IMG/VR virus record: IMGVR_UViG_3300037585_004962
Coordinates: 1 to 28,422 of that record
Length of the DNA: 28,422 nucleotides
Origin: a virus
Direction: 5' to 3' (one strand)
Under the pieces are notes generated by a model. It was not told the origin of the DNA, ran no database searches, and was given only the letters and a program-made list of their open reading frames with translations. Below are positions 8-18,499 of this stretch, in pieces (the stretch's first letter is position 1; the number at the start of each line of letters is the position of its first letter). Made by a program: the position numbers and the translations under genes.

Positions 8-802
8 ATGTCTAAGCTAAATGCAGTTAATAAAAGAATAATGTCTTTAGAAGGAGAGAAGGCAAAGTTAAGTGCAAAAGGTAAAGAAGAGATAGAGAAG
101 GCATTTGATTTTGGAGATAAAAAAGAAACTACTGACACTGAAGTTACTAAGAAAACTAAGCCTAAGACTCTTGAAGAGATAGCAGATGCTGTTGAAGCTG
201 CAGGGCAAAGTCAAGAAGAATTAGCTAAGCAATTTGAAGCAGCACAAAAAGAACAGCAAGATGATTTTGTTTCTGATGAGGAAATAGATAGTGATGAGAA
301 AAAAAGACAAGAAGATAATAAGCAAAGAAAGTCAAAAGAAGAAATTGAAAAAGATTTAACTCAAAAATATCTTAGACCTAAAGATGGAAGAAGCCAATGG
401 GGGCTTGTTCCTGAAAAAGTTGATGCAGACCGAAAAGAACAAAGAGATAATGTTAGAGAATTGAGAGAGCTATTTACTGAAGTAACTGGAGATGAAAGCT
501 ATCATGATGAAAATTTATATATTAAAAAAATTGCAGAGGCTATGGCAGGCGGAGCAGTTCCTAAAAAGAAAGTAGCAAAAAAGAAGGCAGCCCCTAAACC
601 TGCACCAGTAATAAATATAGATTTGGGAAGTGCTATTAATGCTGAGATAAGTGATATTATAGGGGATAAGGATGCTAATGATATAGGTGATGTACAAGAA
701 GGAAGCTCTTTGAGTGAGGAAAGTTTAAATAAAATTAATGATGCAGTTGAAGAAAGTGTTGATGAGATTGTAAAAACTAATTGTCTTAAGGGGAATGAAT
801 AA
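8..802 (+). CDS. Highly charged hypothetical protein, possibly 5'-truncated
   Basis: I do not recognise this 264-aa protein. It is dominated by Lys, Glu and Asp and looks largely helical or disordered: an acidic middle (about residues 75-120), a Lys/Ala/Pro stretch (about 184-200), and an acidic C-terminus. There is no membrane segment and no catalytic motif. Only seven bases precede the first ATG and no ribosome binding site is visible, so the real start may lie upstream of the window. Its stop overlaps the start of the polymerase-like gene (TAATG), so the two are probably translated together. By position it is a late, possibly virion-associated or assembly protein; that is inference only. 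Confidence 0.75.
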   Translation: MSKLNAVNKRIMSLEGEKAKLSAKGKEEIEKAFDFGDKKETTDTEVTKKTKPKTLEEIADAVEAAGQSQEELAKQFEAAQKEQQDDFVSDEEIDSDEKKRQEDNKQRKSKEEIEKDLTQKYLRPKDGRSQWGLVPEKVDADRKEQRDNVRELRELFTEVTGDESYHDENLYIKKIAEAMAGGAVPKKKVAKKKAAPKPAPVINIDLGSAINAEISDIIGDKDANDIGDVQEGSSLSEESLNKINDAVEESVDEIVKTNCLKGNE

Positions 803-3800
803 TGGGACAACAGGGAAACTGTCCAATACCTACAGTTGAAGGTTATTTAGAACATAATAAAGAAAATTTTCAAAGCCTAGTTGATAGATTGATAGCTGAT
901 AATCCTGAAATGGAAGCAAATGAGATTATGACTATTAATACTATATACAATGATTATATGAAGAAAAATACTGTTCTAGCAGATGCATTTAATTCATGGG
1001 CTAAAGATATATATCCAAATCATGTTATAGAAGCAGGGATAACTAGCTCTCTTAGTCCTAGAACAGAATCTGAGAAAAAGGCTATACTATTTGTTAGTGC
1101 TGTTTCAGAAGAATACATTAGTGAACCACCATTAGCACCAGCTATGAACGACCAAGAGTCCTCTGATGGAGAATATAAGGATGATGTAGCTACTGAGAAT
1201 AGAGCATCTACTGAAGTTTATGCTGATATGTCAGGTGAGGAAGTTATAAAGGATATAGTTTTTTCTGCTATAGGAAAAAGAGTAAGTGATAAAGAGTATG
1301 CACAGATAGTAAAATTTGCAAGAGAAAATCCTGGTGAGAATGGATTTGAATCTTTTATGGATTATATGGTTGAAAAATGGCCAGAGATAGGATTTTTACC
1401 TGAAGACATGACTCCAGAAGATAGAATGATGTATACCATGTTCGGAGAGAAAGCACATGATAGGATTAAAGACCCTACGAAAGTAATGTCATTAAAGGCA
1501 TTTCATAATAGCTTTGACCCTATAAATAAAAGAACTAGGACACAAAAGAAATATCATGTTATAACTAATTGGAATGGTAAGGTTGCACCAAAAGGAGACT
1601 TATATTTAATAGATAAACCTGAATTGAATTTAAAGACACAGAGAAAAGAGCCTACAATGCTTCCTGCTAGCTTCATTGACACATCCCCCTCTAAGCTTCC
1701 AAATGGGAATAAAGTTGGACAGGATACTGAATATATGTCCTTAAATGACTTGGTTGAATTGACGGAGAAAAAGGATGGCACATGGTTTGCTAAGCCATCT
1801 AATTTTGGGTATAGTGTAAAACAATTAAATGAAATGTTAAAAATACTAGCTAGAAAAGCTGGATTGACTATAGCTACTCTAAGAGGTGGTAATAGTGGTA
1901 TGATTGTTCTTACAAAGATAGAACATTACTATAATAATTTATTTCCACAGCAACAAATAGAAGTATTAGCAGCTAAGTTTCCTGAGAAATTTCAAAAATA
2001 TTTAAAAACACATAATAATAATATGATGAAAGCTGTTCTTAATTATTATAATGACTTAGTGAAGGTTTTAAACACAGAAGGAGTTGGTAGGGCTAAAGAA
2101 GAGGTTGCTATTGCTAATGCTATATTAAAAGCACATTCAGAGATAGCCATTGTTAATTATAAAAAATATATGCAAGAGCAATTGGATAAAAAATTAATAA
2201 CTCCTGAAAAATATGAGGAGTTTATTCAAAATATATTTAATCTTCCATTGGAAGGAACTAAGGATAGTTATGGCTTGAATAGACCATATATATTTATGGG
2301 AGAGTATTTAGCTAGCATAATAGCTCGTCACGAATGGTTAAAAGCTGTAATAGGGAAGGATTATGTAGCTAGAGGAAAAGATGTAGAAGATATTTTCAAT
2401 AGAATGAGGTTGCCATTGTCTGAAGGTAGTATGAATAGAGATGGCACTGATTCAGAAACTTTAATTTTAGATGAGTCTAATATACAATATAGAAATACAG
2501 AAACTGGTGAGATAATAGAAGTCAATCAAAATGTAGGATTAAAAGACGATGTCCCTATTGATGATGGTGCATTAGACATGAGCTCTAGAAAGATGGATGA
2601 GCATACAGCTAGTCTAGGTCGTCAAGCGACTAGAAATTATGAACATAATCCTAGAGAATTGAAGATAGCTCATTATGATTTAGTCCAAAATGAGGATGGT
2701 CAAGATGACTATATGATTTCAAAGCAAATGGCTTTTGTTGCTGAGCCAGGTCTTGAAATAATAGATAAGAATACTGGAAAAGTTTTAGCTAGATATGTTA
2801 AAAATCCTGATGGAAGTATTAGTATAAAAGCAGGGCCAGGTACAAATATTGCAGGTAAAGAAATAGATGAAGTTATGACACTTAATGAGAACAAAGATTC
2901 TACGGGCAAGTATTCTATCCCTGAGGGGGAATCTTATGTTCATGTAACCTTACCAGCTCAAGCTACTAGAACAGTTATACTACCTGCTACTAAGTCTCAT
3001 AATGATGCTGCCTTAGGTACTACTTGGGCTAATACTTTCAATCAAGACACTCCTGCAGCAAATGCTGTGAGAGAAATTTTATTTAAAATCTATACAGATA
3101 TAATGAATAAGCATTTAAATATACTTCATCGTGCTAGAGTAAGTCCTGATAGCTTGAGGAAATTAGTTAGATATCACTATAAAGTTTTAAATGATGCTAC
3201 TACTGAAGTCCAACAATTAATTAATATGTCAGATAAGGGAGTGCATCATCCTAATAATTTAAAGATATTCAGAACTTCTATATTTAACATGCTAATTGCA
3301 TCAGGTGCTTTAAAAGGAAGAATCACTATTGACAGAACTAAACCTAATTCTGTATCGGAAGGAATGTCTAGTACTCTAAAGCTTAAACAGGATAAGATGG
3401 GTAGAATAAAGCTAGGAGAAGATGGTGAAGCAGAGGGTATAATCTCTGGGGTAGATAATGATAGATTGCTTAATTATGTTCAAGACAAGTATCTTCAGGA
3501 GATATTAAAAAAGGAACAGATAGATGTTCAAGCATTTAGAGATTTATCATTAGAGGAAAGAATAGGTAAAATTAATAGTTTCCTAGAATCTAATGATATA
3601 ATGGTTCAAGTAACTAGGCAACCTATACAGCATAAGGGTGGATTGTTATTTAGGAAATTATTGAAATTTGAACCTAATGCTGGTAATCAGCTTATAATGC
3701 ATGTGAGAGATGTTGCTTTCCATTTACTTGCAGATGCGGATGGAGATACTGTAAGTATAGCTATATTGCCAAAGCCTGAATTAGCTAAAGAATTAATGAA

Positions 3801-5256
3801 TGCTATGAAGTCTGATGCATTTTTACTTGAAAATTTTACTGCAGATTTAAATATCTTTGAGCATGCTCCCAAAACATCTCCAGCATCATATGTAGGATTT
3901 ACAGAATCTATGGTAAGCTCTATACAATTTCATGCTGCTCAAGGAGTAGTCTCTAATATAAAGACAATAGCATCTGTTATGGAAATGAAGTTGGGAGATA
4001 ATCCAATTAAACTTAATGATGGAACTAGTATTAAAATAGTAAAGGCAGATGATTTTATTATTATGGATTATGCACCTTTACTTGATAGTGTTACTCAAGC
4101 AGATATCCCTGAATTTGCTAGTATAGTAAATGCAGATGGGACTCCACATGATGGTAAAGGTCCTAAATATTTAAGAACAACTGCTAACCATGAAAGATTA
4201 TTACTTATAAATGCAGCTACTGATAATACTAAAGAGCATTTATTGGGTAAAATGTGGAATATGGATTACAATAAGTTAGTTGCTCGTATGTATAAAAGAG
4301 AGGATGGACAGCCTTTAACTAAACCTCAAATACAATTGTTGAAAAAATTAAATAAGTTTTTTAATTATAGTGATATAAGAAGAGGTAGGAATAAGCAAAC
4401 AGGAAGGAAATTAACTGATAGTGAGTTTTATAACAAGACTAAAGGCATATTGAACTTTTTAAATAATAGCCCAGAGGGTAAGGTAGATATTATTAAGAAT
4501 TTAATAAAACTTCCTAATAAGAAATTATCTATAGAAGAAATAACAATATCAGATAAAATGACTGCAGATGAGCTCTTAGTTACAAAGCCAGCTGAAAAGA
4601 TGGAAAAAGATTCAGAAGAAATGAATAAGAATACTAAAATGGTTCCTTGGGGTTATCAGGGGGACAGCCCTATGTCATATACAGATGCTAAGTATCAAAA
4701 TACTCACTTTACAGCTATGCAGGGGTTTAATAATGGAGAGACTGTAATAAAAGGTTTAAACGATATAATGAAGGATATATTGTCTTCACTTCCTCCTGGT
4801 GATATGTTAACAGATGAGGCTAGAACAGCAGCTAAAAATTTCTTAAATAGATTTGACCCTGCTTGGAGAGCTCATTTAAATAAAAAGAGAGAAGCTAGGA
4901 GTAAGAGTAAAAATGAATTAACATCTCAACATTATGATTATGATAAAGAAATGCATGAGTTTATGCAACCTTGGTTAAAAGAGATGGATGGGTTAATAGA
5001 AAAGCATGGTGAAGTATTTAGAATGGTCGTAACTTACTTCCAGTTCAAAGGCTTTGGTGGAGTTAAGAGAATGAATCTTTTATATAAATCAGATATGCTT
5101 AATGGAACAGTTTATGATGCATATATGACAGTATGGGAGAAATTGTTTTTTGCTATAGATAAAAAGAATGGACAGTATCTAATTAGCAGCACAAAAGCTA
5201 AGACAACAGCAGACCAAAGAGTTGCAGATATAACAGAGGGGAATCAGTGTGGCTAA
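802..5256 (+). CDS. Giant protein with RNA polymerase beta'-like DPBB (DxDGD) active site
   Basis: 1484 aa, start set by AAGGGG eight bases before ATG. Residues 978-982 read DADGD, the metal-binding signature of the beta' double-psi beta-barrel of multisubunit RNA polymerases and of YonO/crAss-type phage polymerases. It sits in the right context: TRQPIQH at 938-944 matches the conserved RAPTLHR block, with 39 residues between the Arg and the first Asp (35 in E. coli beta'). The segment after DADGD (TVSIAILPKPELAKELMNAM) resembles the beta' continuation. A later block, INAATDN (1136-1142), lies in the C-terminal third, where bridge/trigger elements would be expected. I cannot find an obvious beta-subunit barrel with its two catalytic lysines (GDK...HGNKG type); it may be divergent in the N-terminal half or on another protein. 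The overlap with the next giant gene and the late position suggest a virion-carried polymerase that transcribes early genes after injection; this is inferred. Confidence 0.72.
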   Translation: MGQQGNCPIPTVEGYLEHNKENFQSLVDRLIADNPEMEANEIMTINTIYNDYMKKNTVLADAFNSWAKDIYPNHVIEAGITSSLSPRTESEKKAILFVSAVSEEYISEPPLAPAMNDQESSDGEYKDDVATENRASTEVYADMSGEEVIKDIVFSAIGKRVSDKEYAQIVKFARENPGENGFESFMDYMVEKWPEIGFLPEDMTPEDRMMYTMFGEKAHDRIKDPTKVMSLKAFHNSFDPINKRTRTQKKYHVITNWNGKVAPKGDLYLIDKPELNLKTQRKEPTMLPASFIDTSPSKLPNGNKVGQDTEYMSLNDLVELTEKKDGTWFAKPSNFGYSVKQLNEMLKILARKAGLTIATLRGGNSGMIVLTKIEHYYNNLFPQQQIEVLAAKFPEKFQKYLKTHNNNMMKAVLNYYNDLVKVLNTEGVGRAKEEVAIANAILKAHSEIAIVNYKKYMQEQLDKKLITPEKYEEFIQNIFNLPLEGTKDSYGLNRPYIFMGEYLASIIARHEWLKAVIGKDYVARGKDVEDIFNRMRLPLSEGSMNRDGTDSETLILDESNIQYRNTETGEIIEVNQNVGLKDDVPIDDGALDMSSRKMDEHTASLGRQATRNYEHNPRELKIAHYDLVQNEDGQDDYMISKQMAFVAEPGLEIIDKNTGKVLARYVKNPDGSISIKAGPGTNIAGKEIDEVMTLNENKDSTGKYSIPEGESYVHVTLPAQATRTVILPATKSHNDAALGTTWANTFNQDTPAANAVREILFKIYTDIMNKHLNILHRARVSPDSLRKLVRYHYKVLNDATTEVQQLINMSDKGVHHPNNLKIFRTSIFNMLIASGALKGRITIDRTKPNSVSEGMSSTLKLKQDKMGRIKLGEDGEAEGIISGVDNDRLLNYVQDKYLQEILKKEQIDVQAFRDLSLEERIGKINSFLESNDIMVQVTRQPIQHKGGLLFRKLLKFEPNAGNQLIMHVRDVAFHLLADADGDTVSIAILPKPELAKELMNAMKSDAFLLENFTADLNIFEHAPKTSPASYVGFTESMVSSIQFHAAQGVVSNIKTIASVMEMKLGDNPIKLNDGTSIKIVKADDFIIMDYAPLLDSVTQADIPEFASIVNADGTPHDGKGPKYLRTTANHERLLLINAATDNTKEHLLGKMWNMDYNKLVARMYKREDGQPLTKPQIQLLKKLNKFFNYSDIRRGRNKQTGRKLTDSEFYNKTKGILNFLNNSPEGKVDIIKNLIKLPNKKLSIEEITISDKMTADELLVTKPAEKMEKDSEEMNKNTKMVPWGYQGDSPMSYTDAKYQNTHFTAMQGFNNGETVIKGLNDIMKDILSSLPPGDMLTDEARTAAKNFLNRFDPAWRAHLNKKREARSKSKNELTSQHYDYDKEMHEFMQPWLKEMDGLIEKHGEVFRMVVTYFQFKGFGGVKRMNLLYKSDMLNGTVYDAYMTVWEKLFFAIDKKNGQYLISSTKAKTTADQRVADITEGNQCG

Positions 5257-8200
5257 ACCTAAAAAATGTACAACATCTAGTCAAGACGAGCAAGCAGCTC
5301 AGGAACATATTAATCAAAAAAAGGTACAAATAGAACTAGAAATAGATTCTTTAATAGACGAACATTTTGGTAGAGTTTTTGACAATACATCGGCATTAAA
5401 TACTACAGTTACCCAAAAAAATATAGACAAGAGAAACAATCAAGCTAGGATAAAATATCTACAAAAAAACCGACCTCCTAATTGGTATAAAGAAGTCAAT
5501 CAATTAAAGCAAAGAGTAAAACAGGATGAGAGAGATTTATCTAAAGCTAAAACCTCATTAAGAGATTTAAAGCAAAAGAAAATAGTAGGCAATAATCTAA
5601 TTAATCTATTGAAAGAAAGGATGTTGCTGTCTGCTCAAAAGCATGTATGGAATATAGATGTGTCAGACATTGTAAATGTTCTTAAATTATACCTCTCAAA
5701 TAGAATGGGTCCCTTTAATAGCATTAATGACCTGAGCTATCCTGAATTAAATGCAAAGTATAACATGCTAAAGAAGTGGTTTAAGAATCAGGATGATGGT
5801 ATAATGCCTACAGGATTTAGAGGACAGGGAATGAAGGCTAGTTATCAATATACTATGGTAGACCCTGCAAAAGTTATCATTATGAATGATAAGTCTTTAA
5901 AAGGTTTGTCTCTAATAAAAGAAATACAAGATAACCTCCCTAAAAAATCAGAAAGAAAAAGTTTCTTTAGGAAAAAATATGCCGAAATTCAAGATACAAT
6001 GTCTACCTTTTTATATAATAATAATATTATATTTGAGAATGATGGTAGGAAATGGGATGAGCTTACTCAATCAGAAAAGATTCAAAACATGGAGAAGATT
6101 AATGAGTTTATTTCTGATTTACTAGATGGTAAAGTTAAATATGTAGTGCCTAAATCTATTAAAAATTTAATAAGTCCAAAGAATAAGGAATTGTTTGAAA
6201 AATATGCCGCTATAGTTGCCTATGCAAATAATTCTGGATTTAATGTTAGTAAGGATATTCATGAAGTTAGAGATGGTGATGAAGTATATTACTATGTTAC
6301 TATGAAGAATGTAGATGAGAGTACAGGTAAGGAAGAGTATTATGCATTCTTAGTACCTCATTACTTAGATGATAATGGTCGTACCAAGTTTTATTACCCT
6401 GCAAGTAAAAAGGGAGCTAAAAATGGTAAATGGTTAAGTTCAATACCAATAAAAGCTGGTAGTTCAGCTAAGGATATAACTGATGTAATGATTCCAGGAT
6501 TTAGAAAGGCAGAAGTAGATAAGATATTCAATGGTTACAATAAAAATCAAAGAGAAATTAATGTCAAGGGGTATGCTGATTATAACCAAATGAGTGGAAT
6601 GGATATTAATCATCCTATGTTCAATCAGGATATTATAAATAAAGGTACTTCTCAAAAATCTGTTGAAAGTATGTGGCTACATATAAAGAAAGTAAGAGAA
6701 TTACTTGATGAGATATTCCAAGACTGGCAAGAAATGGCTCAAGGGACTTTAGATAGAGTAAGTAATGTTGTTAATACACATGCTGGTTTAAGGGATATAA
6801 TAATCAATAAAGGGGTTGCTGCTGAAGAGGTTGACGAGAATGTAGCTAAAATATTAAACATATTAGATTTTAGTAGTATGATGTGGATTGACCCTGACAC
6901 AGGTGAGGTAAATAGTCCTAACATAACTAGTGGTATCGCAGAGAATTACTATCCTACAATGTATGACTATGAAGTTAGTATAGCACAATTGGCTGGTGCG
7001 ATAATGGGGATAAGAAATGAAATTAGTTTATTAATAGATAAAAGAACACAGTTAAATAATTTAGAGGAAAAAGAGACAGACCCTGATTTAAAAGCTAAAT
7101 ATAAAAAACAACTTATTAATGTTGATAAGAAATTAAAAGAATATGTAGGTTACAATATCACCAATGCATCAGGTGAAGTTGAAAGGAATCCTGGAGTTTT
7201 TGAATTAATGACAGCTGAACTAGACTTGTCTTTAGGCTTAATAACTAAAGAGGAGATGCCTGGTCTTTCAGCACAAAGTATGGTGGCTTATGGTAAACAC
7301 AGAAAGCTTTGGACAAGAAGAATAAAGCCACTCACACCAGGAACTATTTATGGTGGTAAAAGAACTGATGCTAATGTTATTAATGAGATGATAGACAATG
7401 TATATGAAACAACTTTCAATAATCAAATAAAAGCTGCTTTATTAGAGGCTATTCCTGTAATAGACCCAGCTGTATTAGATTTTTTAGTGGAAGAAGTAAA
7501 GGCTGCATTAGGAAGGCATGATGTAAGAAGTGGAATTATGGGTCTTGATTACTCTAATGAAAAAATAATGAAAGTAGTTAAGAAAATTTCTCCTAATACA
7601 AAAATGACTGTGGAAAGAATACATCAATCAGCAGCGAACTTAAGTACAAGAATCTCAGGCTCTTTATTGGGAGTATCAACTGCATTGCAAAATAGAATGC
7701 AGGAATTTCTAGGTGGAGTTATTGAGATAGGCCCAATGTGTGAAATGAAAGTTATGGAGATAATGGGCAATAAGGATATGGCTACAGATATAGCTCAACA
7801 GGCAGGTGTTCTTGATACCATACAAACTCTCTCTGATGTATTTTTAGGAGGCTTAGAAACACAGCTTACCTTTACCGATGGATTTCATACAACTAAAGAT
7901 TTTATTTTATTAAAGACTGCTAATTTATCTGGATGGTTAAATTCTAAAAATATTGAATCGTGGTTAATTAGGCTTATTAAGACTAGGGAAGGTGATAAAA
8001 CTGAAATAACTAAAGAAAATTTATTACATATTAAGGAAGGTGTATTTGAATTAGTCCATGGAATAGCTGATGGAACATTAACAGATGAGCAATTACAAGC
8101 ATTATATGGGAAGTTATCTAGGATAGCTGGAAAACAATATATAAGATGGTATGCACAATGGGGAATGGGAGCCTTTGGATTAGGTGATACTATACCAGGT

Positions 8201-9115
8201 CTTAAAGGAGCCAAGCAATACCTATCTATGACAGAGGGTGAGAAGGAAATGAGGACTATAATGGCTGTTAGAGGGTCTGTATTCTATGCTGATTACATAG
8301 CACCTGAAGACCAGAGAGGTAATTATACATCTCATGATGCATTAGAGTTTGCAAGAGCATTAGTAAATAATACTCTATTTCAATTCAGCACTCAGTATTT
8401 TCCTAAAATCTTTAGAGGCATAGGTGGTATGTTAAGCATGAAGTTTAAAACATACTATTATATGGAATCTAAAAGAGAATTGGAAATACTAAATAACTTT
8501 TGGAATATGATAAGGGGATTAAAATTGCCAGATGGTAGGCCAGATAGAGCTAGGCAAATATCAGAATTTAGAAAAGTATTTGGTTCGCCTACAGAAGGTT
8601 ACCCATTTATAGGGTATCATCCTGATGATGTTTATAGCTTTAGTCTTGAAAAGAATGGACCATATCCTTGGCTAGGTAAGGGAAATAGAGGGATGGATAG
8701 TGATTCTGAGAGGTTAAGGAAATTATTTTGGAGCAGGACTATGGCATCTTTATGGCTTGTAGGTACTATTAGTATATTTAGACCTATGAGATGGCTAGGT
8801 AATTTTGTTCATAAAAAGTTTCAAATAAGTCCTACTGTTTTAGGAAGGGGTGCTGAATCAACTTTAGCATCTTTAGGATTAAGAGGCATTAGATTGTTAC
8901 TGGGGAGTTTAGCTTTAGGGATGGATGATGAGGATGAGGATGCTAAGCAATTATATAGAATATTCTTACCTATTTATTTGAATGTTATATATGATTCAAT
9001 AAAAGGTAAAGGCTCTATGTTTAATCCATTTACATTAACTAGGATAGGGGCAGGATGGATGTCTGAGTCTCTACAGGCTATATACGAACATGCTATAGGC
9101 GAGAAGATGGAATAG
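5249..9115 (+). CDS. Giant hypothetical protein, probable internal virion/ejection protein
   Basis: 1288 aa. The start is GTG, seven bases after GAGGGG, and overlaps the end of the polymerase-like gene by 8 bases, so the two are co-translated. The N-terminal region (about 20-125) is Lys/Gln-rich and predicted coiled coil. The central region (about 770-1050) is helical. The C-terminal 130 residues carry hydrophobic stretches (SLWLVGTISIF; a second near LRGIRLLLGSLALG) followed by an acidic DDEDEDA segment, which could contact membrane. No enzyme motif is visible. Size, position and hydrophobic C-terminus resemble ejected internal core proteins of short-tailed phages. It could instead be a second polymerase subunit, because the preceding protein shows only one of the two catalytic barrels. 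The gene ends convergently against the leftward region. Confidence 0.6.
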   Translation: MAKPKKCTTSSQDEQAAQEHINQKKVQIELEIDSLIDEHFGRVFDNTSALNTTVTQKNIDKRNNQARIKYLQKNRPPNWYKEVNQLKQRVKQDERDLSKAKTSLRDLKQKKIVGNNLINLLKERMLLSAQKHVWNIDVSDIVNVLKLYLSNRMGPFNSINDLSYPELNAKYNMLKKWFKNQDDGIMPTGFRGQGMKASYQYTMVDPAKVIIMNDKSLKGLSLIKEIQDNLPKKSERKSFFRKKYAEIQDTMSTFLYNNNIIFENDGRKWDELTQSEKIQNMEKINEFISDLLDGKVKYVVPKSIKNLISPKNKELFEKYAAIVAYANNSGFNVSKDIHEVRDGDEVYYYVTMKNVDESTGKEEYYAFLVPHYLDDNGRTKFYYPASKKGAKNGKWLSSIPIKAGSSAKDITDVMIPGFRKAEVDKIFNGYNKNQREINVKGYADYNQMSGMDINHPMFNQDIINKGTSQKSVESMWLHIKKVRELLDEIFQDWQEMAQGTLDRVSNVVNTHAGLRDIIINKGVAAEEVDENVAKILNILDFSSMMWIDPDTGEVNSPNITSGIAENYYPTMYDYEVSIAQLAGAIMGIRNEISLLIDKRTQLNNLEEKETDPDLKAKYKKQLINVDKKLKEYVGYNITNASGEVERNPGVFELMTAELDLSLGLITKEEMPGLSAQSMVAYGKHRKLWTRRIKPLTPGTIYGGKRTDANVINEMIDNVYETTFNNQIKAALLEAIPVIDPAVLDFLVEEVKAALGRHDVRSGIMGLDYSNEKIMKVVKKISPNTKMTVERIHQSAANLSTRISGSLLGVSTALQNRMQEFLGGVIEIGPMCEMKVMEIMGNKDMATDIAQQAGVLDTIQTLSDVFLGGLETQLTFTDGFHTTKDFILLKTANLSGWLNSKNIESWLIRLIKTREGDKTEITKENLLHIKEGVFELVHGIADGTLTDEQLQALYGKLSRIAGKQYIRWYAQWGMGAFGLGDTIPGLKGAKQYLSMTEGEKEMRTIMAVRGSVFYADYIAPEDQRGNYTSHDALEFARALVNNTLFQFSTQYFPKIFRGIGGMLSMKFKTYYYMESKRELEILNNFWNMIRGLKLPDGRPDRARQISEFRKVFGSPTEGYPFIGYHPDDVYSFSLEKNGPYPWLGKGNRGMDSDSERLRKLFWSRTMASLWLVGTISIFRPMRWLGNFVHKKFQISPTVLGRGAESTLASLGLRGIRLLLGSLALGMDDEDEDAKQLYRIFLPIYLNVIYDSIKGKGSMFNPFTLTRIGAGWMSESLQAIYEHAIGEKME

Positions 9116-9207: not shown

Positions 9208-9561
9208 CTACTTGATTGTGTCTAACCAACTATCAAGTTCGATAGCAACATAGACTTTTGAACGGTTTCTTTTGAATACCACTACAGGTACTCTTCCTTC
9301 ACAGTTAGTTTCAGCTTGTTCTAAGGCACTCCACACATTCAATTTTTCTACGTTTTTACATTCAAAGCTATAAGGTATTATTCTTTTGGCAGCAGGAGAC
9401 ATAACTATATCCTCTCCTGACATTCCCATTGTTTGGGATTTTATATCATCTTCTTCTAATATTGGCAATTTCTTCCAATTTTTAATAAATATTTCATGTA
9501 ATTTATCTCTTAAGTGATTCTGTAATCGTCTTCCCTTCGCCTTACTTGACCTTGCTGTCAT
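9208..9561 (-). CDS. PD-(D/E)XK-type nuclease (Holliday-junction resolvase/VRR-NUC-like)
   Basis: 117 aa. The fold signature is visible: a basic N-terminal helix (GRRLQNHLRDKL, 10-21), then SGEDIVMSP with Asp51, then the strand YSFECKN giving the ExK pair Glu67/Lys69, then a helix (WSALEQAETN) and a strand (VPVVVFKRN). This order is that of small PD-(D/E)XK nucleases, including phage resolvases and replication-coupled nucleases. A probable role is processing branched DNA during recombination or before packaging. It is the last clear gene of the replication/recombination block. Start ATG follows AGGGAAG and overlaps the preceding gene by 20 bases. Exact substrate class is uncertain. Confidence 0.68.
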   Translation of the reverse strand: MTARSSKAKGRRLQNHLRDKLHEIFIKNWKKLPILEEDDIKSQTMGMSGEDIVMSPAAKRIIPYSFECKNVEKLNVWSALEQAETNCEGRVPVVVFKRNRSKVYVAIELDSWLDTIK

Positions 9562-10372: not shown

Positions 10373-11098
10373 TTAAGCTAAATGGGCATGACCCAGAGTA
10401 CTTAACTCTTTATGTAGCTTAATGTGACTACTCATCATACGAGTAGGAGAACAAGTCTTTAGTGCTTCAGTTCCAGCATTATACAATGACCATAGACTGT
10501 CGTCTTCAAATTCCTGATGAGAAGGGTTTTTCCATTCCTTTCTCATTATACTAATTTGTGGAGTATTGATAACACCTTTGCCAAATAACACTCCCATGGT
10601 CTCCCAAGCTCGCTGGTTGTTAATTGGTACTTCTTTCATTATTTCTTTATCTTCTTGTAACTGAACAAATTTATCGTCACTATTGTATAGTACTTTAAAG
10701 ATTAATGAGTTCAATTCATCTAAAATATTCCCTGTATGTTTTCTCATAAATGTAACTTCTCCAGTCATCATTAGATTTTCGCATACAAATACTTTAGCTC
10801 CTACACATACACCTATAGACATAGATTTATCATAGCTATTTCTAAATCCTATAGACATACCTACTTCATCTTCATCATTTTTAAATGTATATGTAGCGAA
10901 CATATGTTGTCCATTTCTAGCCAAACCGAATCTCTTAGAATGTAATTCCTTGTCTATAACACGTTCTCCTATAGAGCCTACATTCATAGCTAAGTCGTAA
11001 TGACTCACTGGTACATATGTATTTGTTGCTTCTGGCATTTCTATTGCTGTTAAGTCATCTAACTTAACTTCTCTTGATGTTATTAATGTAGCTCCCAT
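10373..11098 (-). CDS. DUF932 family protein
   Basis: 241 aa. The pattern VSHYDLAMN, then KRFGLARNGQHMFATYTF, then GMSIGFRNSYDKSMSIGVCV followed by VFVCENLMM is characteristic of DUF932 proteins, common in phage and plasmid replication/recombination regions and of unknown biochemical function. The domain occupies about residues 30-220. Start ATG follows AAGGGG six bases upstream. Its start abuts the stop of the Gp157-like gene, so it belongs to the same transcript as the recombination genes. A strong hairpin follows the stop. Confidence 0.72.
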   Translation of the reverse strand: MGATLITSREVKLDDLTAIEMPEATNTYVPVSHYDLAMNVGSIGERVIDKELHSKRFGLARNGQHMFATYTFKNDEDEVGMSIGFRNSYDKSMSIGVCVGAKVFVCENLMMTGEVTFMRKHTGNILDELNSLIFKVLYNSDDKFVQLQEDKEIMKEVPINNQRAWETMGVLFGKGVINTPQISIMRKEWKNPSHQEFEDDSLWSLYNAGTEALKTCSPTRMMSSHIKLHKELSTLGHAHLA

Positions 11099-11589
11099 TA
11101 TTTTATTCCCCTTACGTATGATTTTTTTACTAATTCAACTCCTGCTATTTCTATTCCTTTCTTTAAATCTTCTAGTATTACTTTCTTTCTAAGCACAGTT
11201 TCTGTTTTTTCATACCAATAAACAGAAGGTATCAAGTCTTCATCTATTATTCTTACTGAACCACCTGACTCAGATACTTTTATAGGATTTAAAGCACTAT
11301 GTTTGGGAAGCTCTCCAGTATTAGAATACATATCTACAGTGTATTGCTTAAGACCTTCTTGCTGCTTCTTTAGGAACTTAACATACCTCTGAGCTTTCTT
11401 TATTTGTTTACTAAAGATATCTATTTCTGCTTCCATATCTTGATAGAAGAAATAAATACCATCTTCTTTCTTACTTCTTTCTGCTACAAGTTCATCAATT
11501 TTAGCTTGTATATCAGCATCATCAAATATCTCATATTCATTATGTGCTAAAACTAAATCTCTTGTTATTTCGCTGAGCTTCCTAGCCAT
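11098..11589 (-). CDS. Siphovirus Gp157-like protein
   Basis: 163 aa, matching the Gp157 family layout: an N-terminal acidic helix, a long coiled coil (about 45-90), then the conserved C-terminal half with SVRIIDEDLIPSVYW (about 110-124) and a closing KKGIEIAGVELVKKSYVRG. Gp157 proteins are phage recombination-cluster proteins often found beside Sak-type ATPases and SSBs, and some were linked to resistance to Sfi21-type phages; their biochemical role is not established. AAGGAG precedes ATG. It sits directly downstream of the primase-helicase gene. Confidence 0.75.
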   Translation of the reverse strand: MARKLSEITRDLVLAHNEYEIFDDADIQAKIDELVAERSKKEDGIYFFYQDMEAEIDIFSKQIKKAQRYVKFLKKQQEGLKQYTVDMYSNTGELPKHSALNPIKVSESGGSVRIIDEDLIPSVYWYEKTETVLRKKVILEDLKKGIEIAGVELVKKSYVRGIK

Positions 11590-11600
11590 TCTTGTTCTCC

Positions 11601-13382
11601 TTATTCTAGTATTAATTCCCCAGTAGGTAAGTTTCTTGTGCTCTCTAACTTACAATTATTAGGGAAAAGTGTTAATGTTAATGATTCTTTCTCTCTATTA
11701 GCTGTTGTTTTAACTGTTAATTGCTTTACTAAGCCATCAGGTGTTTTAACTGGACTAAGCGAAAGTATTTTATTTGCATTGTAAGCAATTCTAAAAGAAC
11801 CTCTAGATGAAGATATATCCATACCTTCTCTCATAGCTGTTTTACTTATTTCACTTACTGCAAATACTATCACATTCTGTTGTATTGCTAGTTCCATTAA
11901 AGACTGAGATACTTCTTCTAACTTAGCATTAGCATCTTTTTGTGTAGAAGAGAATAAACCCATATGGTCTACTACAACTATCTCTGGCTTAACTGATAGC
12001 ATCTGTATCTTCTTCGATAGCTCTCTTGCATCACAAGAATTATAATCAACTGTTAGCCAATCAAAGTCTTTAGATATACCTCTTAGCTTTCCACTTTTAT
12101 GCATTTCTTTTATCTCATCATCTTCTTTTTCTAAGTGCATTGAAAGGAATCTCTGCCATATTTGTCTTGGAGACATTTCTAATTCAAGAAAGTATGTAGG
12201 TCTAGCTAACTGATGCATCCAGTTTTGTAATAGCATAGTCTTCATAGATTTAGGTGGTGCTTGTAAGATAACTACTTCTCCAGGATATATAGGGAAGTCT
12301 TTACCATACAAATCACCTAGATTAACTCCTCCTATATCTGAATCATAAAAATCTAACAATACATTTTCCATTTCTTTAGCAGACATAGCTCCTTGAGACT
12401 TTTTCATTTTGAATAATTTGCAAGTATTCTTACAATATTTATCCATTACAGCATCAGCACAACCATATCTATTTCCTTTACCTCCATGTGCTTCATAGGC
12501 AGAGTTTACTATACCATCTAATTCTTTCTGTGTGAAAGGCTTATTAGGCATATCAACTTTCTTTCTCCAAGTTTCCATTAAAACTCTTACCATATCTTCT
12601 GGATACAACCATCGTAACCAAGCTGATAATCTTAAAGCAACTGCATGTCTATTTCCATATCCAGTTCCTTTTAACATATCTGATATACATGGATAATTAG
12701 TAGGGTCTGGATTTCTTCCATAGTCTTTAACTATTATATTATCATATTTCTTTATTTTTCTTTTAGTTACATTGAAAGGAGGATTCATTGTCTCATAATC
12801 TTCTAGTTGATTATCATGTTCCCTTGAGCATTTAGCAAACTCTAGAACATCCTCTATCTTACCGTGTAATTGATGAGGTTTTAATTGTACTTTCCATAAA
12901 CCAGACTTGTTATTTCTTGTATTAAGACATCTTATAATACGTGTCTTGTCTGTTACAGAGGGGTCGGCTATTTCAAATATTCCTTTTTCAGTCAGTTCAT
13001 CTTTTACTTTTAAGTGAAGATTTTCACATGGCTCCCAAGTAAAACATTTACCTGATATTCCTATATGAAATCCAGTTCCACTAAAGTATACATTATAAGT
13101 ATCAATTCCCAAGTCTTCTAATAATTGTGTCAATGCGATAGTTTTTTGTCTTGCTCTTTCTGGATTATTACCATCTATATCTAAAAGATATTCATCAGGC
13201 ATATATATTTTTCCATCATATCCAGATAAGCTTTTCTTTTTCTTTATATATTCTTTTACATCTTCGTCATATTCCCATAAGGAATGGAATGTGTCTTTAG
13301 CAACATTCATCCATTTAGATACATCTGCACTATCCATAAAATGATGTCTGTTAGCTAAACCAAAGGCAAATTCTCGTATCAT
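11601..13382 (-). CDS. Bifunctional AEP-type primase / DnaB-like helicase
   Basis: 593 aa from ATG at 13382, chosen because AGGAG lies eight bases upstream; a longer TTG frame lacks this. N-terminal primase of the archaeo-eukaryotic type: LLDIDG (Asp68, Asp70) and SGTGFHI (101-107, His106), then RCLNTRNNKSGLWK. A PriCT-like helical region and a Cys cluster (YGC...YC...TC) follow. C-terminal RecA-like helicase: Walker A region APPKSMKT (375-382), Walker B EIVVVDH, and later SEISKTA and SSSRGSF typical of DnaB-type helicases. It should prime and unwind at the phage fork. The Walker A lacks its usual glycine before Lys (SMKT instead of SGKT). Downstream of the SSB-like gene in the same transcript. 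Confidence 0.82.
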   Translation of the reverse strand: MIREFAFGLANRHHFMDSADVSKWMNVAKDTFHSLWEYDEDVKEYIKKKKSLSGYDGKIYMPDEYLLDIDGNNPERARQKTIALTQLLEDLGIDTYNVYFSGTGFHIGISGKCFTWEPCENLHLKVKDELTEKGIFEIADPSVTDKTRIIRCLNTRNNKSGLWKVQLKPHQLHGKIEDVLEFAKCSREHDNQLEDYETMNPPFNVTKRKIKKYDNIIVKDYGRNPDPTNYPCISDMLKGTGYGNRHAVALRLSAWLRWLYPEDMVRVLMETWRKKVDMPNKPFTQKELDGIVNSAYEAHGGKGNRYGCADAVMDKYCKNTCKLFKMKKSQGAMSAKEMENVLLDFYDSDIGGVNLGDLYGKDFPIYPGEVVILQAPPKSMKTMLLQNWMHQLARPTYFLELEMSPRQIWQRFLSMHLEKEDDEIKEMHKSGKLRGISKDFDWLTVDYNSCDARELSKKIQMLSVKPEIVVVDHMGLFSSTQKDANAKLEEVSQSLMELAIQQNVIVFAVSEISKTAMREGMDISSSRGSFRIAYNANKILSLSPVKTPDGLVKQLTVKTTANREKESLTLTLFPNNCKLESTRNLPTGELILE

Positions 13383-13405
13383 ATCTTGTTCTCCTGTTGG
13401 TTTAT

Positions 13406-13450
13406 AAAGGGGCAATCATTCGATAGCATTGCTCTCTAGACTACCCCTTT
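13406..13450 (-). other. Nested intergenic hairpin before primase-helicase
   Basis: AAAGGGG (13406-13412) pairs with CCCCTTT (13444-13450), and inside it CAAT (13413-13416) pairs with ATTG (13428-13431). In the minus-strand RNA this structure lies between the SSB-like stop and the primase-helicase ribosome binding site (AACAGGAGA). It may set relative expression or mRNA stability; there is no T run to support termination. Confidence 0.45.
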
Positions 13451-13458
13451 AAGGTTAT

Positions 13459-13986
13459 TTAGAATGGTGCATCATTATCAGTTTTATTTGCAACTGAACT
13501 TCCTATATTAGGCTGTACCCAATCTACAAAGTATTTTTCTGCTCTACCTTTCCAATAATTAACATCATTTTCTTTGAAGGTATCTAAGGAACCTTTAAAT
13601 TCTACAGGCACCACTCTTTGTAATACTCTTGAATAACCTTCTTCATTTTTATATAAGTAAATCCAGAGATTTTTATCAACTAGATTAGTGGCTGTGTCAT
13701 CTATTTTTACAATATGTTCTCCATCTGCAGTTCCGTCTGATACTTCGGTGATACCAGCATTTGCATATCTAAATAAATTAGCAATTGCAAATTCTTCACC
13801 TTCCTTATTACTTTTAGCATACATTCTTAAGTTAAAGTTATCTGGATATTCATTAAACCAAACATCTATATACTTAGCACCATTATCTAATGAACCATAT
13901 GTAGCTTTAGATATATTAACTTTATGCCATCCTGGTTCAAAATTGCCAGAGCTTGTTCCCTTTTTTACAGTCATTGTTATTGCCAT
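13459..13986 (-). CDS. Single-stranded DNA-binding protein-like
   Basis: 175 aa. The N-terminal two-thirds is rich in alternating beta-type stretches (WHKVNISKATYG, KYIDVWFNEY, FNLRMYAK). The protein ends in an acidic tail with DNDAPF (170-175), like the DDDIPF tip that bacterial SSBs use to recruit partners. The gene overlaps the stop of the Sak4-like ATPase gene (TAATG), and Sak4-type ATPases are typically encoded beside SSBs and work with them. It may alternatively belong to a DUF669-like phage family; ssDNA binding is still the most likely role. The start follows GGAGG inside the ATPase gene. Confidence 0.65.
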   Translation of the reverse strand: MAITMTVKKGTSSGNFEPGWHKVNISKATYGSLDNGAKYIDVWFNEYPDNFNLRMYAKSNKEGEEFAIANLFRYANAGITEVSDGTADGEHIVKIDDTATNLVDKNLWIYLYKNEEGYSRVLQRVVPVEFKGSLDTFKENDVNYWKGRAEKYFVDWVQPNIGSSVANKTDNDAPF

Positions 13987-14738
13987 TATTCATTACCTCC
14001 ACTGTTTATTGTTTTTAGACTTAATGTTTTACCACTTCCAGGGTCACCAATACATAATACTTTAGCATTACCCCATCCTTTCTTTTCCACTACTCCGAAT
14101 ATACTAGCATAATCCTGCTTCATTTCTGCATTCAATACTTGACTTCTATCTTTTGCATGGCAGTATCTTTCATCTCTAGCAGTTACCCATATATAGTTTC
14201 GCTTACCTGTTTTATCTTTTTCTACTTTAGTATACAGGACAAAGTCAAACCATTTACCTATATCTTCTTTAGTGGAACCTTCTATAGCAGGATACATTTT
14301 CTGCAAACCTAGCTCATCATCTTTGATAGGCTTAGCATGAGTGTTCACTATTACACTACACGGTAATTGATTAACTACATTCATGAGGATATCTAATTGA
14401 TTCTTTATTTGTCCCCATTGTTGAATAGTTAGTTTATCTTTACCTGCCTGTAGTTCTCTTTGATACTTCTTAACTAGCTCTGTACCAGTATCTAAGACTA
14501 TACAATCCACATCTACACCTTGCTTTTTAACCCATTTAGTAGATTCCTGTGGAACTGTTACAGCTCCTATTTTAACTTCTTCTTTTACTACTTTTCGTTC
14601 AAACAGGCTACCTAATAGCTTCTTAAAATCACTGTAGTTATCAAATTGCAACATTGGGTATCCAAATTGGCTTTTGATATCTTCAGGACTTCCAAGAGAC
14701 TTGTATCCCTGTTCAAAGTCTATATATAAGACTTTCAT
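13986..14738 (-). CDS. Sak4-like RecA-fold ATPase, apparently circularly permuted
   Basis: 250 aa. Every Sak4/RecA-like motif is present, but in rotated order. The protein begins MKVLYIDFEQG (the strand with the DxExG motif that normally follows the P-loop), continues with Walker B CIVLDTG (Asp83), a sensor strand VIVNTHAK (129-136) and the Sak4-type VTARDERY...AKDR block (185-198). Only then comes the P-loop strand AKVLCIGDPGSGKTLSLKTI (Walker A 231-238), 12 residues before the stop. Joined end to end, C- and N-termini recreate the ordinary spacing. The start is fixed by AGGAG five bases before ATG; a GTG six bases upstream overlaps that site. It should bind ATP and assist strand annealing or exchange with the SSB encoded immediately downstream. 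Function is inferred from family; the permutation is read directly. Confidence 0.78.
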   Translation of the reverse strand: MKVLYIDFEQGYKSLGSPEDIKSQFGYPMLQFDNYSDFKKLLGSLFERKVVKEEVKIGAVTVPQESTKWVKKQGVDVDCIVLDTGTELVKKYQRELQAGKDKLTIQQWGQIKNQLDILMNVVNQLPCSVIVNTHAKPIKDDELGLQKMYPAIEGSTKEDIGKWFDFVLYTKVEKDKTGKRNYIWVTARDERYCHAKDRSQVLNAEMKQDYASIFGVVEKKGWGNAKVLCIGDPGSGKTLSLKTINSGGNE

Positions 14739-14783
14739 CGGCACTCCTTTTTTGTTTTGGTTGATTTTTAGACGAACTTTAAT

Positions 14784-17581: not shown

Positions 17582-17806
17582 TTATAATTGATTATCTGGA
17601 TTATACTCGTCAACCATTTCAGATTTATCAGCCTCGTATCTAGCTACATCAGCTTGAGCTTGAGCATCTAAATCACATTCAAACCTAGTGATTGTCTCTG
17701 TGTTAGCTTCTATCACGTCTCTTAAATCCTTAGGCTTAAAATTGTTAGTAAGTATATTGATAAGCAATTGATTGTTTCTCATTATTAGTTCAATGAGCTT
17801 AAACAT
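17582..17806 (-). CDS. Small acidic helical protein (74 aa)
   Basis: Unrecognised. N-terminal hydrophobic helix (LIELIMRNNQLLINIL), then an acidic Ala/Asp/Glu-rich half. Its start overlaps the stop of the winged-helix-like gene (TAATG) with no separate strong ribosome binding site, so translation is probably coupled. Confidence 0.55.
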   Translation of the reverse strand: MFKLIELIMRNNQLLINILTNNFKPKDLRDVIEANTETITRFECDLDAQAQADVARYEADKSEMVDEYNPDNQL

Positions 17807-18147
17807 TATACATCCATGGAGTAAACACCGTGCTTACTGCCTGTCCTTGAGTTATGTTTCATCTCCATGTTTATCTTATAACCTCTTTCACGAAGCTCAC
17901 CAATGATACCACCAAGTCTTATAGTATTAAATTTACTAGGTGGATAACATTGCATTTGTGAGAGTGTCTTACCAGATTGCAAGTGGTCTAAGACAAGCTT
18001 AATCTTACTACCAGATGTGAAATAGCCATGTTTATATGTTGTTCCATCTTTCTTAACTGCTACTCCTTTACCTTTATAAGTCACAGTAGAACTTCTATTA
18101 GCTTTACCTCTTACTTTTCTAGTTGTACCATCTTTATTCTTCTTCAT
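17806..18147 (-). CDS. Basic winged-helix-like DNA-binding protein (113 aa)
   Basis: ATG at 18147 is preferred because AAGGAG is six bases upstream; a longer frame lacks one. After a very basic N-terminal 35 residues, the segment KIKLVLDHLQSG...SKFNTIRLGGIIGELRERGYKI (about 48-90) has the spacing of a small winged helix-turn-helix found in many phage early proteins. It may be a transcriptional regulator; no operator is identified. It overlaps the zinc-finger-like gene upstream by 14 bases. Confidence 0.6.
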   Translation of the reverse strand: MKKNKDGTTRKVRGKANRSSTVTYKGKGVAVKKDGTTYKHGYFTSGSKIKLVLDHLQSGKTLSQMQCYPPSKFNTIRLGGIIGELRERGYKINMEMKHNSRTGSKHGVYSMDV

Positions 18148-18499
18148 TTTCTTCTCCTTGTGGTGGTTCAGGGTGACCATACTTAATAGCTAGGTCATTG
18201 TCTCGTATTACTTCACTATTATACATTTGTGTTAAGAATCTATTTAGGTCTTGAAGTGGACCAATAGCTTGAGCATTTAATATCATTCTATCGCCTTCTA
18301 TCTTATGATGTTGTAGCATAAGTCTCGTAATTTCAAGGGCTTGCAGAAGTGATATAGGTTTAAATAGCTTATCCATTGCATCAAACTCATGTTTATCAAG
18401 TATGTGTTCAAAGCTATCACCATCATGGTCTTCACCTAATATAAAGTCACATCCATCAAATGGACATGTCTCACCATTACCTAGTTCTAATGTTCCCAT
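18134..18499 (-). CDS. C2H2-type zinc-finger-like protein (121 aa)
   Basis: N-terminal finger TCPFDGC (Cys12, Cys17) and FEHILDKH (His32, His37), followed by a helical body (45-100) and an acidic, Pro-containing tail. The finger matches that of the 66-aa protein at 17212-17412 in spacing and in the shared H-x-x-DKH helix. GAGGAG precedes ATG. Function unknown. Confidence 0.65.
   Translation of the reverse strand: MGTLELGNGETCPFDGCDFILGEDHDGDSFEHILDKHEFDAMDKLFKPISLLQALEITRLMLQHHKIEGDRMILNAQAIGPLQDLNRFLTQMYNSEVIRDNDLAIKYGHPEPPQGEENEEE

Follow-up and report, generated by a model that had tools for sequence, protein, structure and literature searches.

A viral Sak4 family RecA-core ATPase with circularly permuted motif order and a C-terminal Walker A

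We found that a viral gene encodes a Sak4-like ATPase whose Walker A motif is placed near the C-terminus instead of in front of the RecA core. An earlier note on this DNA had proposed a circularly permuted Sak4/RecA-like ATPase, and this reading, a true permutation of a Sak4 (PF13479/PHROG 124) RecA-core ATPase, is now supported by profile matches, a rotation scan, profile-profile alignment, relatives, a tree and a structure model. The DNA analyzed (hereafter the window) comprises an entire IMG/VR virus record, 28,422 bases long, and profile scans recognized terminase, portal, primase-helicase, Gp157 and nuclease genes in it. The features discussed below are listed in Table 1.

Table 1. Positions in the window of the permuted sak4 gene, its motifs and its neighbors (residues are those of the window protein)
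Feature	Position	Strand	Basis and remarks
Circularly permuted Sak4 (RecA-core ATPase), 250 aa	13986..14738	minus	ORF; PHROG 124, E=7.6e-27; PF13479, 60.2 bits vs cutoff 27; order kept in relatives
AGGAG ribosome-binding site	14744..14748	minus	Sequence; 5 nt before ATG of permuted sak4
beta-2 strand with DxExG, residues 3-11	14706..14732	minus	Glu9 is the putative catalytic glutamate; second strand in canonical Sak4
beta-hairpin insertion, residues 46-71	14526..14603	minus	Model; HHalign gap; between post-beta-2 helix and Walker B strand
Walker B strand CIVLD, residues 79-83 (IVLD 80-83)	14490..14504	minus	Sequence; D83, E87 in 105/105 relatives
Sensor strand, residues about 128-136	14331..14357	minus	Model; H134 in 105/105 relatives
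AKDR block, residues 195-198	14145..14156	minus	K196, D197, R198 in 105/105 relatives
New junction, residues 199-225	14064..14144	minus	Former C-terminal helix joined to beta-1; helix 210-220 in model
Walker A GDPGSGKT, residues 231-238	14025..14048	minus	G, K, T in 105/105; PHROG 124 columns 43-64
SSB-like protein, 175 aa, ends DNDAPF	13459..13986	minus	PHROG 378 (SSB); probable Sak4 partner; ATG overlaps sak4 stop codon
Primase-helicase (DnaB-like)	11601..13415	minus	PHROG 19/243/16345, PF03796; near 105 of the loci examined
Gp157 / Mu Gam-like protein	11098..11589	minus	PF05565, 5.7e-18; PHROG 253
DUF932 protein	10373..11098	minus	PF06067, 3.1e-8
RusA-like/PDDEXK nuclease	9208..9561	minus	PHROG 244, PF24608

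The gene forms one continuous frame, as the earlier note had stated, and is read from position 14738 to 13986 as 250 codons followed by TAA. That note gave no strand; it is the minus strand, and the plus strand of the same interval is full of stops. The motif positions given there (the DxExG strand, which holds DFEQG at residues 7-11, Walker B, the sensor strand, AKDR, GDPGSGKT and the 12-residue tail) were all correct, as was the AGGAG five bases before the ATG, which also precedes the gene in three relatives (L001, L003 and L004). An in-frame GTG that overlaps this AGGAG, two codons upstream of the ATG, is an unlikely start codon. In relatives, the upstream in-frame sequence consists of a stop codon followed by QKGVP or KSIKQQKGVP, and these stops therefore exclude a hidden N-terminal P-loop; a scan for a P-loop relic upstream of the gene likewise yielded nothing above shuffled controls.

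Sak4/AAA_24 was the sole significant match of the protein in natural order in the Pfam and PHROG scans, which revealed neither the NKxD motif nor the domain of TRAFAC GTPases. Residues 3-215 matched columns 66-255 of PHROG 124, the Sak4-like ssDNA annealing protein family (E=7.6e-27, 95.7 bits), and the last 32 residues alone matched columns 43-64, so that the two matches are complementary and in swapped order. The strength of this match, together with the recurrence of the order across contigs, exceeds chance. Canonical Sak4s carry the P-loop at about residues 19-34, whereas it comes last in all near-complete members described here.

We then rotated the sequence near residue 219, as had been suggested, and obtained a single collinear and higher-scoring match in three independent tests. 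With the P-loop first, PHROG 124 was matched once, over columns 43-253 (114.3 bits, E=1.7e-32), and the PF13479 score rose from 60.2 bits (curated cutoff, 27) to 75.4 bits, then covering columns 2-194 of 195. When every rotation was scored with an HMM of eight canonical phage Sak4s, the score peaked for starts at residues 216-223 (105.3 bits vs 87.7 in natural order), and the scans of two relatives, L011 and L010, peaked at the corresponding site. HHalign placed residues 5-217 on columns 22-205 and residues 227-248 on columns 1-22 in natural order, but produced one alignment after rotation (E=2.4e-25 vs 6.8e-18). Finally, tblastn against annotated phages found known Sak4s over 97% of the length of the rotated protein and over at most 64% in natural order; among 50,697 phage records, the natural-order protein matched only Sak4s of Moraxella phages, over 60-64% of its length. 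Because rotation restores the canonical order, the homology holds and these proteins represent a permuted subfamily of Sak4.

Like canonical Sak4 (PF13479 AAA_24; PHROG 124; e.g., that of HK620, PMC5928155), the window protein is a RecA-core-only ATPase with Walker A and B motifs, a glutamate after beta-2 and a KDR block, and it has the same kind of neighborhood, with an adjacent SSB gene (SSB-like in the window) and Gp157/Gam-like neighbors. Walker A (GxPGxGKT) and Walker B (hhhD) are intact, and the 250 residues are modeled as one compact domain without an extra C-terminal domain. In contrast to canonical Sak4, its order runs from beta-2 through the KDR block and a helix to beta-1 and the P-loop; beta-1 precedes Walker A, and a helix/tail of 12 residues leads to the C-terminus. 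A fixed 32-residue junction takes the place of the N-terminal leader and the C-terminal tail of canonical Sak4, and a beta-hairpin stands before Walker B. Indeed, the distance from KDR to Walker A is 32 residues both as minimum and as median (the single maximum, 206, probably reflects an earlier KDR in the same sequence). The tail and leader of eight canonical Sak4s total 43-74 residues, and this difference indicates that the canonical leader is gone. The hairpin strands (46-57 and 60-71 in the AlphaFold2 model) face a gap in the canonical profile in HHalign. In the permuted Sak4s of L170, L155, L148, L197 and L207, the P-loop is followed by a low-complexity tail of roughly 30-80 residues.

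The residues expected of an active site are fully conserved. D7, E9, G11, D83, E87, H134, K196-D197-R198, G231, G234, G236, K237 and T238 are invariant in all 105 near-complete proteins among the matches listed; conservation of the WFDFV/Y block was left out of this count, since the search pattern itself accounts for part of it. A catalytic glutamate after beta-2 is a signature of the RecA superfamily (PMC8093625), and the invariant E9, which aligns to the AESG/AEGG of canonical Sak4s, is the putative catalytic residue.

The earlier note had called for relatives with the same order, and these were found in at least about 140 distinct IMG/VR contigs (contig names counted in the locus list) at 36-88% identity, none of them with the P-loop in front. 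Four contigs present the permuted order at 85-88% identity, and more distant relatives are 51% (L010), 61% (L011) and 62% (L117) identical to the window protein. An order-independent DNA pattern for the [KR]WFDF[VI]xY block matched at least 119 stretches. Among the matches listed, 111 ORFs encode relatives, and all that reach the C-terminus have Walker A near it; together with the relatives identified before, they make up the 105 near-complete proteins, which form 73 clusters at 90% identity, extend down to 36% identity to the window protein and are all permuted. The canonical P-loop-to-beta-2 junction was also used as a query, a search that favors relatives of canonical order, and 77 of its 80 ORFs were permuted and the other three were cut by a contig end; no close relative of canonical order was found among these 80. 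By comparison, canonical Sak4 loci retrieved with a different query had the core after the P-loop in 80/80 cases. Other searches returned no further relatives: a DNA pattern for the RYxHAKDR region gave, beyond known members, five chance matches in viral contigs; genome contigs searched with two alignments and plasmids contained none; and tblastn of divergent permuted members had no match in the 50,697 phage records.

When 73 permuted and 44 canonical proteins were put into one register and placed on a tree, one branch (SH-aLRT 97) split the two forms, and a single change of order suffices. Since some canonical rows are long-branched, the tree is consistent with one origin but does not prove it. 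Tandem duplication followed by trimming is the standard model for circular permutation. The earlier note had invoked such a duplication with loss of the outer parts, which would accord with the model; neither a duplicated intermediate among the permuted sak4 loci nor an upstream relic P-loop was seen.

A first structure model built from five near-identical sequences was poor (pLDDT 46), whereas AlphaFold2 with an alignment of 63 rows yielded a compact fold with pLDDT 91.1 and pTM 0.88; canonical sequences entered this alignment split into core and P-loop rows, which carry no pairing between the parts. According to the earlier note, the permutation would be in doubt if a predicted fold did not build the central P-loop strand and helix of the domain from residues 219-250. 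These residues were modeled confidently as strand, P-loop and helix of one compact domain, and pLDDT is about 86-97 from residue 201 to residue 240. As an independent check, the BFVD model of the viral protein A0A516LUR7 (BFVD/UniProt), which is collinear with the permuted order and 53% identical over its full length, superposed with a TM of 0.91 and an rmsd of 2.1 over 244 columns; canonical Sak4-like BFVD models matched the core at a TM of about 0.5-0.67 only. Foldseek against the PDB gave no significant RecA-fold match, which may be due to the use of a sequential aligner on a permuted chain.

The gene downstream of the permuted sak4 belongs to the same SSB-like family in 108 of 109 loci. 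Many of these genes overlap the sak4 stop codon, and most of their products carry a C-terminal tip typical of SSBs, of the PF, PW or DW type (63 end in PF). PHROG 378 (SSB) matched three of four members tested (best E=4.3e-5) and also the DUF669 SSB beside the canonical Sak4 of phage Youna2 (4.5e-18). HHalign against canonical SSBs (one, or 29) gave a weak E=0.03, so that the SSB homology itself is weak even though the gene is almost always adjacent, and the assignment to SSBs is a tentative one based on sequence. In canonical systems, a cognate SSB gene adjoins up to 80% of sak4 genes, and the Sak4 of HK620 acts as an ATP-dependent annealase, which its neighbor SSB, a DUF669 protein, stimulates via the SSB C-terminal tail (PMC5928155). 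It has also been reported that sak4 usually precedes SSB genes and has Gam- or orf157-like neighbors (PMC8093625). The window shares this published setting through its SSB-like, primase-helicase and Gp157 genes (PMC5928155, PMC8093625), from which we infer the same function.

Several other genes were observed in these loci. In L010, JAB-like and ThiF/E1-like genes, not seen in the window, are located upstream of the permuted sak4 (L010:1641-3328; ThiF, Pfam 1.7e-18; JAB below cutoff). Of the fetched loci, 95 contain relatives of ThiF and 73 contain relatives of JAB, many of L117-L313 among them, and the pair may constitute a ubiquitin-like module next to recombination genes of phages. In the L001 phage, a radical SAM gene resembling spore-photoproduct lyase (L006:5381-6241; PF20903, 6.7e-19) separates the SSB-like gene from the primase-helicase gene, and relatives of it occur in a few other loci. 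In the window itself, the plus strand carries ORFs of 1484 and 1288 aa (802-5256 and 5249-9115) without a Pfam or PHROG match. An RNA polymerase DxDGD motif considered in the former (LADADGDTV) is unsupported, as its ADxDGD form was not found in a 40% identical homologue. A winged-helix protein (HTH_39, PHROG 4973) is encoded among small early genes at 17806-18180 on the minus strand.

Taken together, we consider it very probable that this is a functional, naturally permuted Sak4 with a cis-docked P-loop that, with the adjoining SSB, most likely performs ATP-dependent annealing of ssDNA. The chain would begin at beta-2 with the putative catalytic glutamate and proceed through Walker B and the sensor strand to the KDR block; a short linker of fixed length would then connect the former C-terminal helix to beta-1, with the P-loop and its helix last in the chain. 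The P-loop strand is predicted to dock in cis at the center of the sheet, thereby completing the same ATP site as in canonical Sak4. With its neighbor SSB, the protein would bind and anneal complementary ssDNA in an ATP-dependent manner during phage replication and recombination. The permutation and its conservation, the single branch between the two orders, the invariant catalytic residues, the gene neighborhood and the model are results of this analysis; cis docking in the cell, ATPase and annealing activities and the SSB partnership are inferred, and loss of the leader and gain of the hairpin may have changed subunit or DNA contacts.

Alternatively, the C-terminal P-loop segment could be swapped between subunits and complete a neighbor's site, so that a domain-swapped ring or filament would result. 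In favor of this, the P-loop hairpin lies at the chain end, attached through a linker, and the absence of the canonical N-terminal leader implies that subunit contacts must differ. However, the 32 residues that separate KDR from Walker A are consistent with tight packing in cis, and the monomer model is compact and confident across the junction and P-loop, which makes a swap quite improbable. It is also unlikely, if a little less so, that the protein is a permuted RecA-core ATPase without annealing activity that serves as a helicase loader or mediator for the neighboring primase-helicase: such a gene is nearby in most loci and sequence and fold searches say nothing on function, but the profile match is to Sak4 families and the adjoining SSB-like and Gp157/Gam-like genes reproduce the published sak4 neighborhood (PMC5928155, PMC8093625). 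A degenerate, inactive Sak4 remnant, suggested by the unusual architecture only, is very improbable given catalytic residues that are invariant in 105 divergent proteins. An assembly chimera, frameshift or local rearrangement masking a real gene with its P-loop in front has a still smaller, almost negligible probability: we found no evidence supporting it, the upstream region has in-frame stops and lacks a relic P-loop, and the conservation of the same order in independent contigs refutes an assembly artefact.

To our knowledge, few P-loop NTPases have undergone a natural circular permutation that preserves the active site; the RsgA/YlqF GTPases are the well-known cases. The motif order of permuted TRAFAC GTPases is G4-G5-G1-G2-G3. 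Archaeal RadB and Rad51 paralogues are cellular proteins with the P-loop first. The permuted GTPases RsgA/YloQ and RbgA/YlqF (TRAFAC; PMC6912228 and references there), resemble the permuted Sak4 as natural permutations of a P-loop NTPase that kept the catalytic motifs but differ as TRAFAC-class proteins that act on ribosomes and do not have the RecA fold. RadB and the Rad51 paralogues are structurally most similar to Sak4 and have the RecA core in common with it (PMC5928155). No report of a permutation was found for A0A516LUR7. The earlier note knew of no described permuted Sak4, and we likewise encountered none, nor a permuted protein of the RecA fold, in the mostly open-access literature searched, a scope that makes priority uncertain. 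We give an even chance to the broader proposition that this is the first recognized natural permutation of a RecA/Rad51-superfamily recombinase, of single origin and fixed across a large phage clade, with a P-loop at the free C-terminus, a lost leader and an added hairpin that rewires subunit or DNA contacts in the annealing complex.

A conserved permuted recombinase implies that translation and folding of a RecA core can finish with its central P-loop strand. The permuted Sak4 is a natural test of which termini matter in RecA-type assembly. Because a sequential fold search against the PDB misses it, similar proteins may lie unrecognized. Sak4-family annealases are also of interest for recombineering.
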